64,000 nucleotides of DNA from an uncultured Clostridia bacterium (GTDB lineage Bacteria > Bacillota > Clostridia > Oscillospirales > Oscillospiraceae). The notes beneath the pieces were generated by a model that was not told the origin of the DNA, made no database searches, and saw nothing but the letters and a program-made list of their open reading frames with translations. Below, piece after piece: positions 4,564 to 63,791 of this stretch (position 1 is the first letter of the stretch; each line of letters opens with the position of its first letter). The DNA is taken from positions 1 to 64,000 of the forward strand of contig CAMFAL010000003.1 of assembly GCA_945948185.1 (NCBI GenBank). Direction: 5' to 3'. Position numbers and translations under genes: made by a program.

Positions 4564-7314
4564 ATGGGTCTGTTGAAAACACTGTTTGGCGATTCCAGTT
4601 CCCGGGAGTTGAAGTCCATCTACCCCATCGTGGACAAGATCGACGCCATGGCCGACGAGTACAAAGCCATGACCGACGCCCAGCTCCAGGCAAAGACCGC
4701 CGAATTTAAGGAGCGTCTTGCGAATGGTGAGACGCTGGACGATATCCTGCCGGAGGCCTTTGCCACCGTGCGGGAGGCCGCTGACCGCGTACTGGGCATG
4801 CGCCCCTACCGGGTCCAGCTGGTGGGCGGCATCGTGCTGCACCAGGGCCGTATCGCCGAGATGAAGACCGGTGAGGGCAAGACCCTGGTGGCCACCCTGC
4901 CCGCCTATCTGAACGCTCTGACTGGCCGGGGCGTCCATATCGTCACCGTCAACGACTATCTGGCCAAGCGTGACTCCGAGTGGATGGGCAAGGTCCACCG
5001 CTTTCTGGGACTGAAGGTGGGCCTGATCGTTCACGGTCTCACCAGCAAGGAGCGCCAGGAGGCCTACGCCGCCGACGTAACCTACGGCACCAACAACGAG
5101 ATGGGCTTCGACTACCTCCGCGACAATATGTGCATCTACTCCAGCGAGCTGGTGCAGCGGGGCCACGCCTTCGCCATCGTGGACGAAGTGGACTCCATCC
5201 TGATCGATGAGGCCCGTACTCCCCTGATCATCTCCGGCCAGGGTGAAAAATCCACCCAGATGTACGACATGGCCGAGATGTTCGTCTCCCGTCTGAAAAA
5301 GCGTGTTGTGGTCCAGGTGGATGACAAGGAGGAAGAGGACACCTCCCTCGACGCCGACTACATCGTGGACGAGAAGGCCAAGTCCGCTACCCTCACCGCC
5401 CGGGGCATTGCCAAGGCGGAGGAGTTCTTCCATGTGGAAAACCTGTCCGATCCCAGCAACGCCACGCTGAACCACCACATCAACCAGGCCCTGAAGGCCC
5501 ACGGCACCATGAAGCGGGACACCGACTACGTGGTGAAGGACGGCGAGGTCATCATCGTGGACGAGTTCACAGGCCGTCTCATGTTCGGCCGCCGCTACTC
5601 CAACGGCCTGCACCAGGCCATCGAGGCCAAGGAACACGTCAGCGTCCGCAGCGAGAACAAGACCCTGGCCACCATCACCTTCCAGAACTATTTCCGCCTG
5701 TACGACAAGCTGTCCGGTATGACCGGTACCGCCATGACGGAGCAGGAGGAGTTCGGCACCATCTACAACCTGGACATCGTGGAGATTCCCACCAACCGCC
5801 CCAACCAGCGTCAGGACCACCACGACGTGGTGTACAAGACTGAGGACGGCAAGTTCCGGGCGGTCATCCAGCAGGTGAAAGAGTGCCACGCCAAGGGCCA
5901 GCCCGTTCTGGTTGGCACTGTGTCCATTGAAAAGAACGAACTGCTCAGCAAACTGCTGGCCCGGGAGGGCATCAGCCATAACCTTTTGAACGCCAAGAAC
6001 CACGAGAAGGAAGCTGAGATCGTGGCCCAGGCCGGTAAGTTCGGTGCCGTCACCGTGGCCACCAACATGGCCGGCCGTGGTACGGATATCATGCTGGGCG
6101 GCAATGCCGAGTATCTGGCCAAGGCCGACCTGGTGAAGGCGGGCTACTCCGAAGAGGTCATCGTGGACGCCACCGGCTATGCCGACACCGATAACCAGGA
6201 TATTCTGGACGCACGGAAGCTCTTTGCGGAACGGATGGCTTACCACAAAGCCATCATCTCCCAGGAGGCCGAAAAGGTCCGTGCCGCCGGCGGCCTGTTC
6301 ATCATTGGCACCGAGCGCCATGAGTCCCGCCGGATTGACAACCAGCTGCGTGGCCGTGCCGGCCGTCAGGGCGACCCCGGCGAAACCCGGTTCTATATCT
6401 CCCTGGAGGACGACCTGATGCGTCTCTTCGGCGGCGAACGCATCAACAACATGATGGAGAAGTTCGACCTGGACGAGGACACTCCCATCGAGAACAAGAT
6501 GCTGACCAAGGCCATTGAGAACGCCCAGACCACCGTGGAGAGCCGGAACTTCCAGTCCCGTAAGTCCGTTCTGGAATACGACGACGTCATGAACAAGCAG
6601 CGCGAGATCATCTATGCCCAGCGCCGCCAGGTGCTGGACGGCATGGATATCAAGGAGACCGTGCTGAACATGATGCACACCTCCATCTCCAATCATGTGG
6701 CCCTGGCCTTCGGCGAAAGCCAGCACCTGGACGCCGCCGGCTACCGGGATATGATGCGGGGTCTGGAGGGCATCTACTTCCTGCCCAGCGCCGTCTGCAT
6801 CCCCGAATCTGAAATTTCCGGCAAGACCCAGGAGGAATTCACAGACCTGTTTATCCAGGCCGCTGAAAAGACCTACGAGGCTAAGGAGGCCGAGATTACC
6901 AGTCCCATCATGCGGGAGCTGGAGCGGGTTATCATGCTGCGTGTGGTGGATGAGTACTGGATGGACCACATCAGCGCCATGGACGATCTGAAGCAGGGCG
7001 TCCGTCTGCAGTCCTGGGGCAACAACAACCCCGTGGATGTCTATAAGCGGGAGTCTCTGGAGATGTTCGAAGAAATGATCTCCGCCATCCAGGACGAGAC
7101 CGTCCGCCGCCTGTACTCCGTCCGTCTGAAGAAGGACGAGGAGGTCAAGCGTGAGCGGGTCGCCAAGGGCATGGTGGAGAACGTGGGCGGCGACGGCACC
7201 ACGCCGAAGAAGCAGCCCGTGAAAAAGACCGCGAAGATCGGCCGCAACGATCCTTGCCCCTGCGGCAGCGGGTTGAAGTGGAAGAAGTGCACCTGCAAAG
7301 AGTACCATGAATAA
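4564..7314 (+). CDS. secA: preprotein translocase ATPase SecA
   Basis: [32 protein letters not shown]-terminal SEC-C zinc motif [17 protein letters not shown]. Confidence 0.98.
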
Positions 7315-7315
7315 A

Positions 7316-7491
7316 GAGGGGACTTCGTCCCCCCTTTAGATTCCCCCTCACCAGTGATATCGGTCACTGGTGTGTGCGCCCCAAGGGCGCACAGGTCGGG
7401 GTATTTTCGCCACGTACACACCGCGGCGAAAATGATTAAATGTCCTTGATTTGCCTCTGGTAAATCAACTGGGGAAACCAACGGTTTCCCC
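7316..7491 (+). repeat. multi-hairpin intergenic region containing repeat copy A
   Basis: Consecutive inverted repeats: GGGGAC/GTCCCC, CACCAGTGA/TCACTGGTG (7349-7372), TGTGCGCCC/GGGCGCACA (7373-7393), ATTTTCGCC/GGCGAAAAT (7403-7433), TTGATTT/AAATCAA (7446-7468), GGGGAAACC/GGTTTCCCC (7471-7491). Confidence 0.8.
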
Positions 7492-7573
7492 TAGTCCTCT
7501 TCCTCATCCAATCACGTCCCCTGTTCTCCTGCCGGAGGGCAGGGGGCGCTTTGCTACCAGAAAGGAGTTTCCC

Positions 7574-31456: not shown

Positions 31457-31609
31457 AGATCATGGCGTGGCGATATACGCGACGTACAGATCATCTCAGC
31501 CGCCCGATTATCGGACATACTCCCCGGAAGTTACCTCCTCTCGGAGCAATCTCCCGGTTCATCGCAGTATCCACGTGGCAGGACATGCCCATCCCGCGCG
31601 GACCTACTT

Positions 31610-31638: not shown

Positions 31639-31699
31639 GAGGATTTTCTCTGTTTTTGATGAAATTTTTCAGAAAATTTTGGAGGTAATTCCTCTTATA

Positions 31700-31827
31700 T
31701 TTCAATCATTTTCGCCAGGGCATGTATCTGGCGAAAATACATCGACCCAGCCGCCCTGGGCAGCGACACCAGTGAAGAACGCTTCACTGGTGAGGGGGAT
31801 TCTCAAGGGGAAGCCTGCTCCCCCTTG
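31700..31827 (-). repeat. multi-hairpin intergenic repeat copy B (3' of proS)
   Basis: CAAGGGG/CCCCTTG (31804-31827), CACCAGTGAA/TTCACTGGTG (31767-31792), imperfect GCCGCC/GGCAGC, ATTTTCGCCA/TGGCGAAAAT (31708-31738); minus strand aligns with copy A at 7340-7440. Confidence 0.8.
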
Positions 31828-31829
31828 AC

Positions 31830-33269
31830 TCAATAAGCCACGCCCCAATAAATATCGGTGGTGCACTTCTTACCGCACACGGGGCAGACGCCCTCGGTGC
31901 CGGACTGTGCCAGAGGCATACAGCGGGAGCTGACACCGGCCCGCTCCTTCATAGCCATTTCACACTCCAAGCTGCCGCACCACTTGGACCGCAGGAAGCC
32001 GCCCTTGCCGTCGGCGATGGCCTTGGCCTCCTCGGGAGTCTTGATGTCGAAGGTGTTGTCCTCACGGTTCTTCAGAGCCATGGCGTACATGTTGTCATGG
32101 ACCGCGTCCAGCAGCTCCGCCACCTTGGTCTCCAGCTCAGCCAGGGGTACGAACACCTTCTCGCCGGTATCCCGGCGGGCGATGACGCACTGCTCCTTTT
32201 CCATATCCTTGGGACCGATCTCTACCCGCAGGGGCACACCTTTCATTTCATACTCGGCAAACTTCCAGCCGGGAGAGTTGTCGGAATCGTCCAGCTTAGC
32301 CCGGACACCGGCGGCGTTCAGCCGGTCCCGCAGGGCGGCCGCGGCGTCCAGAACGCCGGGCTTGTGCTGGGCCACGGGGATCACGATGGCCTGGATAGGA
32401 GCCACCCGGGGAGGCAGCACCAGGCCGTTGTCATCGCCGTGGGTCATGATGATGCCGCCGATCATGCGGGTAGACACGCCCCAGGAGGTCTGGTGGGGAT
32501 GATGGGGCTGGTTGTCCTTGCCGGCGAAGGTAATGTCGAAGGCCTTGGCAAAGCCGTCGCCGAAGTAGTGGCTGGTGCCGGCCTGAAGGGCCTTGTGGTC
32601 GTGCATCATGCACTCTACGGTGTAGGTCTCCTCGGCACCGTTGAACTTCTCCTTGTCAGTCTTGCGGCCCCGGATGACGGGCATAGCCAGGTAGTTCTCC
32701 ATGAAGTCGGCGTAGATATTCAGCATCTGCATGGTCTCTTCCCGGGCCTCTTCCTCGGTGGCGTGCATGGTGTGGCCCTCCTGCCACAGGAACTCCCGGT
32801 GGCGCAGGAAGGGACGGGAGGTCTTTTCCCACCGCAGGACGGAGCACCACTGGTTGTACTTCTTGGGCAGGTCCCGCCAGGAGTGGATGATGTTGGCGTA
32901 GTGCTCGCAGAACAGCGTCTCGGAGGTGGGACGGACGCAGAGGCGGTCCTCCAGCTTCTCGCTGCCGCCCATGGTGACCCAGGCGCACTCGGGGGCAAAG
33001 CCCTCCACGTGGTCCTTCTCCTTCTGCAGCAGGGACTCGGGGATCAGAACAGGCAGATACACGTTCTCATGGCCGGTCTCCTTGAACCGCTTGTCCAGTT
33101 CCTGCTGGATGTTCTCCCAGATGGCGTAGCCATAGGGACGGTAAATGAACATACCCTTGACGGAGGTGTAATCAATCAGTTCCGCCTTCTTGCAGACGTC
33201 GGTGTACCACTGGGCGAAATCCACATCACGGGCGGTGATGGCGTCCACTTGTCTCTTATCCTGTGCCAT
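31830..33269 (-). CDS. proS: prolyl-tRNA synthetase
   Basis: YVKGMFIYRPYGYAIWENIQ; ARSETLFCEHYANII-like motif 2; KCTTDIYWGVAY C-terminus. Confidence 0.95.
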   Translation of the reverse strand: MAQDKRQVDAITARDVDFAQWYTDVCKKAELIDYTSVKGMFIYRPYGYAIWENIQQELDKRFKETGHENVYLPVLIPESLLQKEKDHVEGFAPECAWVTMGGSEKLEDRLCVRPTSETLFCEHYANIIHSWRDLPKKYNQWCSVLRWEKTSRPFLRHREFLWQEGHTMHATEEEAREETMQMLNIYADFMENYLAMPVIRGRKTDKEKFNGAEETYTVECMMHDHKALQAGTSHYFGDGFAKAFDITFAGKDNQPHHPHQTSWGVSTRMIGGIIMTHGDDNGLVLPPRVAPIQAIVIPVAQHKPGVLDAAAALRDRLNAAGVRAKLDDSDNSPGWKFAEYEMKGVPLRVEIGPKDMEKEQCVIARRDTGEKVFVPLAELETKVAELLDAVHDNMYAMALKNREDNTFDIKTPEEAKAIADGKGGFLRSKWCGSLECEMAMKERAGVSSRCMPLAQSGTEGVCPVCGKKCTTDIYWGVAY

Positions 33270-63704: not shown

Positions 63705-63791
63705 GCCGGTGTGATGGAATTGGTAGACGTGACGGACTCAAAATCCGTTGGTAGCGATACCGTGTGGGTTCGAGTCCCACCACCGGCACCA
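63705..63791 (+). tRNA. tRNA-Leu, anticodon CAA, with encoded CCA
   Basis: Acceptor GCCGGTG/CACCGGC, anticodon arm ACGGA-CTCAAAA-TCCGT, variable arm, TPsiC arm GTGGGTTCGAGTCCCAC, ACCA. Confidence 0.93.

Follow-up and report, generated by a model that had tools for sequence, protein, structure and literature searches.

Mosaic palindromic elements anchored at stop codons form an uncatalogued repeat family in Oscillospiraceae

The intergenic sequence that follows secA in an uncultured Clostridia bacterium (assembly GCA_945948185.1, contig CAMFAL010000003.1) belongs to a family of mosaic palindromic repeats, interspersed in genomes of the Oscillospiraceae and so far uncatalogued; this member is called copy A. 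Neither Rfam nor the papers searched describe the family, although interspersed palindromic mosaics as such are already known from BIME and BOX. Anchoring at stop codons, a single orientation and conserved sites combined with exchange of modules set it apart from both. Throughout, "the window" denotes the whole stretch of 64,000 nucleotides that was analysed.

Six hairpins begin within the secA stop codon

Copy A occupies window positions 7312-7503 and contains six hairpins in a row, the first of which starts inside the stop codon of secA. The TAA (7312-7314) forms the outer part of the H1 stem, TAAAGAGGGG..CCCCCCTTTA. The RNA of positions 7312-7495 was predicted to fold into six consecutive hairpins with a minimum free energy of -91.6 kcal/mol, compared to -55.0 +/- 4.4 for 200 shuffled sequences (z = -8.4; 0/200 as good), while the corresponding DNA fold gave a z score of -9.5. 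The fold thus confirmed the six inverted repeats noted in the original prediction. Their location after secA also held, whereas the assigned start did not, since the element begins within the stop codon and runs to about 7503. The shorter, terminator-like hairpin that had been listed as a separate item is H1, and therefore part of the repeat.

The core had also been predicted to recur in the opposite orientation behind proS. This second copy (copy B) was confirmed on the minus strand at 31699-31832, where a covariance model built from four copies (R1) matched 31703-31832 and a model of H4 matched 31699-31743. The features of the two copies are as follows (evidence in brackets).

7312..7338, plus strand: H1, stop-codon hairpin with the secA TAA in its stem (fold, alignment of copies)
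7349..7372, plus strand: H2, hairpin CACCAGTGA/TCACTGGTG with perfect 9-bp arms (pattern count, covariation)
7373..7393, plus strand: H3, hairpin GTGCGCCC/GGGCGCAC (covariation, fold)
7398..7443, plus strand: H4 core module, hairpin 7403-7433 with conserved flanks GGTATTTT..AAAATGATT (H4 model)
7446..7468, plus strand: H5, hairpin TTGATTTGCC/GGTAAATCAA (fold, comparison of copies)
7471..7503, plus strand: H6, hairpin GGGGAAACC/GGTTTCCCC (7471-7491) and pyrimidine tail (fold, comparison of copies)
31803..31828, minus strand: copy B H1, adjoining the proS stop codon at 31830-31832 (sequence, R1 model match)
31767..31792, minus strand: copy B H2 (pattern count)
31750..31764, minus strand: copy B H3 (sequence)
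31699..31743, minus strand: copy B H4 core module, hairpin arms 31709-31737 (H4 pattern and H4 model)

The exact H2 pattern and the exact H4 pattern each occurred twice in the 64 kb and never in shuffled sequence. Chance hairpins were ruled out by the shuffle controls together with the copies found genome-wide. A closing helix around H2 and H3 (CCCC/GGGG), predicted by folding, was dropped, as inspection of the alignment revealed no visible covariation between the alleles of its two sides. Nearby features of the window include an S10-Clostridia ribosomal protein leader at 31500-31570 (minus strand), close to copy B; a different element copy, L004, is found immediately upstream of an L10 leader. 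A tRNA-Leu (CAA) was located at 63705-63791 of the window.

The element is dispersed across the genus

A DNA search of the genome detected eight further places at E < 1e-4, and the R1 search identified 14 clear copies. R1 matched 21 of 25 genus genomes in a first sample that included the genome itself and 48 of 61 in a larger sample, with 1 to 31 copies each; the highest numbers were found in G044 (31), G007 (28) and G040 (26). These matches answer the reservation that there might be no further copies in the genome or its relatives, and together with the covarying stems described below they bear out the original proposal of a dispersed repeat family located 3′ of stop codons. A scan of GTDB genomes placed pattern matches in Oscillibacter, Dysosmobacter, Ca. 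Pseudoscilispira and uncultured Oscillospiraceae, as well as in some metagenome-assembled genomes classed only as Clostridia. No Rfam covariance model matched the element, either in the window at the gathering threshold or in a permissive search of five loci from the genome and 20 loci from other genera, and none of the open-licence papers searched described repeats of this kind from Oscillibacter or Oscillospiraceae.

Copies are anchored at stop codons of housekeeping genes

Across 92 copies, the distance between the end of the upstream stop codon and the start of the element was mostly about -6 to +7 nt; H1 abuts the stop codon and often includes it. The exceptions mostly contain another module between the stop codon and H1 or H2. 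Copies read in the direction of their upstream gene, and the order of modules is fixed (H1-H2-H3-H4), with H5 and H6 optional. At one locus (L116, 547-784) two copies are arranged in tandem behind pheS.

Comparing the lengths of sense and antisense frames was uninformative, since these G+C-rich genomes contain long antisense shadow frames, and upstream genes were checked against Pfam instead. The sense upstream ORFs matched housekeeping families, with many of the upstream genes confirmed by Pfam. The 210 copies with a usable upstream gene (identical copies removed, although some assemblies may be present twice) fell into 81 upstream-gene groups, the largest being argG (16 copies), pheS (13), groES (8) and rplA (8). 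Copies within operons separate groES/groEL, pheS/pheT, leuC/leuD, argG/argH, a purH/purD-like pair and other pairs (gene names assigned by inspection). This placement, nearly always right behind stop codons, suggests an action on message ends.

Stems covary but appear to evolve as DNA palindromes

The covariance-model check proposed at the outset showed that the stems covary. Among 101 aligned matches, standard pairs made up 95.2% of cells compared to 80.3% after shuffling, and 33 of the 37 base pairs had changes on both sides. The covariation score was 0.353, compared to 0.106 for shuffled and at most 0.094 for slid alignments; the slid controls carry most weight, since the alignment was fitted to the structure. 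The hairpins occur as discrete paired alleles, exemplified for H4 by TTTTCGCC/GGCGAAAA, TTTTTGTC/GACAAAAA and TTTTCGGC/GCCGAAAA. The description of the repeat as having conserved arms and divergent loops therefore needs amending: divergence of the loops stands only in part, because the stems differ too and the H4 loop is conserved across families.

A sense RNA is expected to tolerate G.U pairs but not A.C pairs. Sporadic stem mismatches over 222 copies comprised 63 G.T and 48 A.C, about 1% of pairs (a hand tally that excludes two recurrent positions), whereas the terminal hairpin of the L10 leader, tallied by the same method in the same genomes as a control, had 15 G.T and 0 A.C. At the two recurrent positions, which lie in H1 and H4, the mismatch reads A.C on the gene strand, such that a G.U pair would form only on the opposite strand. 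The near parity of G.T and A.C, unlike the L10-leader control, and the recurrent A.C on the gene strand indicate that the stems evolve as DNA palindromes. Judging from these substitution patterns, the palindromes appear to be maintained at the DNA level. Covariation is consequently no longer proof of an RNA function, although the element may still have one. Conserved position combined with a free exchange of modules that are always self-complementary offers a natural experiment that sets upkeep of palindromes in DNA against function in RNA, a long-open question for REP-like repeats.

Sites are inherited while modules are replaced whole

Copies at orthologous sites (grouped by protein orthology) were 69.9% identical on average, compared to 68.7% for non-orthologous copies and 86% for the upstream gene ends. 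Copies within a genome were no more alike than copies between genomes, and the alleles of the modules were nearly independent of each other. Close pairs, from closely related species, were informative. Between L106 and L290, whose gene is 97% identical, the flanks and H1-H3 match while H4 differs as a unit in both arms; between L024 and L187, H3 differs as a unit and one of the pair carries an insert in the H4 loop. These comparisons indicate that sites are inherited and modules are replaced whole.

The element can also be absent. The pheS/pheT gap measures 14-20 nt without it (G007, G043, G017, G058, G059, G011, G012) and 185-283 nt with it (G013, G061, G044, G055, G040, G068). Empty junctions of this kind are seen in many genomes, so the element is not essential there. 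No target-site duplication was recognised when occupied and empty pheS/pheT gaps were compared.

Other repeats are nested within the element. In some copies (L067, L094, L095, L096, L070, L083 and L100) a distinct repeat of ~115 bp, itself an imperfect palindrome, interrupts the element between H1 and H2 or within H6. It occurs in both orientations, and its signature was found near 19 of 222 copies. The H4 loop of L002, L009 and L024 contains a third repeat, AGAAGGTGAATTGCC..GGAGGGCGCC, with a signature near 23 of 222 copies.

Comparison with REP, BIME and BOX repeats

The element resembles the REP/BIME repeats and associated RAYT transposases of E. coli, Pseudomonas and Stenotrophomonas in being an extragenic palindrome with a mosaic build, many copies, some stop-proximal placement and compensatory changes, and in that RAYT homologs are present in the genus. 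The original assignment to a REP/MITE-like class was nevertheless not upheld. Following the definitions of PMC2817692 and PMC3733652, REPs carry a GTAG or CGTC tetranucleotide at one palindrome end (PMC3733652), whereas inspection of 92 aligned copies revealed no conserved tag of this kind at a hairpin end. Rather than palindromes of 20-40 bp in alternating orientation, the element is 100-190 bp long, always in the orientation of its gene, and built of four to six different hairpins, with ~30 copies per genome at most. A MITE would be marked by terminal inverted repeats in common with a transposase gene and by a target-site duplication; neither a transposase nor a target duplication was tied to the element.

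The RAYT (TnpA-REP) look-up that had been recommended returned homologs in 15 of 61 genus genomes, one homolog exceeding the NCBIfam cut-off (84.3 against 80 bits); none was detected in the genome itself, the assembly of which is 82% complete. No RAYT gene was flanked by two inverted copies, and the fetched RAYT loci had no adjoining copy except for one 2.3 kb away in G013, leaving a REPtron link unsupported. All 15 genomes with a RAYT carry at least two copies of the element while 13 of the 46 others carry none, a weak association between RAYT and copy number. RAYT homologs lie next to a topoisomerase A-subunit gene in several genomes, and some are broken. At L330, L331, L334, L335 and other loci, from several species of Clostridia, the REP-associated tyrosine transposase gene directly precedes the DNA topoisomerase A-subunit gene; no flanking REP-like pair was seen at these topoisomerase-adjacent genes.

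Pneumococcal BOX (boxA-boxB-boxC), RUP and SPRITE are likewise interspersed repeats of modular build that form extensive secondary structure; they are probably transcribed along with genes and transpose slowly (PMC3049150). They belong to another lineage, and the stop-codon anchor and the set of modules differ here (BOX was compared by description only).

A proposed role at message ends and its alternatives

By analogy, the element may well be a mosaic palindromic repeat that works as an intercistronic 3′-end structure, a proposal to which we give even chances. It would be transcribed together with the upstream gene and would act at the 3′ end of the message or between two cistrons, as do E. 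coli REPs near stop codons. Its hairpins might shield the upstream message from 3′ exonucleases, affect ribosomes at the stop codon and separate the expression of two cistrons, and conversion between copies at the DNA level would both keep the palindromes perfect and exchange them, as whole-module replacement suggests. Earlier work cited in PMC12306157 found that E. coli REPs reduce translation when fewer than 16 nt separate them from a stop codon. As with the E. coli REPs within 15 nt of the stop described there, the hairpin here starts a few nucleotides from the stop codon, but in this family nearly every copy has that placement, and the stop codon itself can be included in the stem. The scarcity of G.U (about 1% of stem pairs) and the lack of a clear sense-RNA bias count against a role at message ends, as do the recurrent A.C mismatches on the sense strand and the junctions at which many genomes have no element. 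If the proposal is right, the element lies within the groESL, pheST, argGH and other housekeeping operons, between genes that are transcribed together.

The element could instead be selfish, non-autonomous DNA with no role for the host. A single-strand transposase (RAYT or IS200-like) recognising hairpins in DNA would copy it, and it would insert behind gene ends because insertions at other places are lost. We regard this as possible, at clearly less than even chances. The RAYT homologs, one above the cut-off, and their association with copy number count in its favour, as do junctions occupied in some species and empty in others, stems that evolve as DNA palindromes, and repeats nested in the copies; pneumococcal BOX repeats have been judged parasitic (PMC3049150). 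However, the RAYT genes are unflanked by the element, the richest genomes (G044, G007, G040) have no detected RAYT, several RAYTs are broken, and no target duplication was recognised. A single orientation and the reuse of the same stop codons across species are also unlike random insertion. A cis-regulatory RNA, in which a protein or ligand is bound through the conserved H4 loop (TACACGC/CACATGT) and its flanks while the other hairpins form a scaffold, is improbable. Conservation of this loop and its flanks across families and the covarying stems speak for it, but the element is located behind, not ahead of, genes of many unrelated pathways, G.U pairs are nearly absent, and a conserved A.C mismatch lies on the sense strand. 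Ordinary intrinsic (bidirectional) terminators that are similar by coincidence are more improbable still. H1 does lie at the gene end, its G-C stems are flanked by A/T, and a terminator pattern scan flags it. Yet only 44 of 183 copies have at least five T among the 8 nt that follow the H1 C-run and 115 have three or fewer, TCGAG-type H1 has no T-tract, copies are present inside operons, the ordinary terminators of the window have other sequences, and H2-H4 are not terminator-like on either strand. The terminator reading is thus largely refuted, and the earlier statement that these are not ordinary terminators is supported by the weak T-tracts and the intra-operon copies.

An H4 core across the order and a mirror-repeat tail

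A model of H4 alone (R2, built partly from copies of G030) matched 36 of 394 genomes of the order, representing 16 of 168 genera in four families, often with at least 15 copies per positive genome (the best 15 candidates were scored). In other genera, H4 is found 40-330 nt downstream of a sense ORF and is preceded by hairpins that differ from those described here. Pfam matches were obtained for 21 of 30 of these ORFs, with GroES represented in two other genera; the two GroES loci, L377 and L378, show the complete order H1-H4. Among the 394 genomes, which included two from the same genus as copy A, the exact H2 pattern occurred only in the genome itself and in one other genus of the family. A multi-hairpin gene-end element of its own is present in a different family of the order (G030; L057, L364-L368); it shares the H4 core, but its other hairpins differ, and it ends in CTCTGCGAGGC.

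It is conceivable, if doubtful, that these elements form an order-wide class in which the H4 core and lineage-specific modules stay in place at the stop codons of housekeeping operons while modules swap, acting as a general 3′-end or intercistronic regulator in Oscillospirales, with a last module that may form an intramolecular triplex. If so, abundant gut bacteria among the Oscillospirales would carry a general gene-end element missing from current RNA and repeat catalogues, and annotators would gain a model for intergenic stretches at present left blank.

A weak mirror signal in H1 was also seen in direct-repeat controls, and a triplex is not claimed there. In the H6 module (window 7471-7503) the pyrimidine tail behind the hairpin and the 3′ arm form a mirror repeat, TTTCCCC-TAG-CCCCTTT. 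The lengths of the A-run in the H6 stem and the T-run in the tail were correlated (Spearman 0.82 and 0.84; 31 distinct types, 64 H6 hairpins in the fetched loci), more weakly so for the G-run and the tail C-run (0.57-0.60). Such co-variation of stem and tail run lengths is a prediction of an intramolecular triplex.
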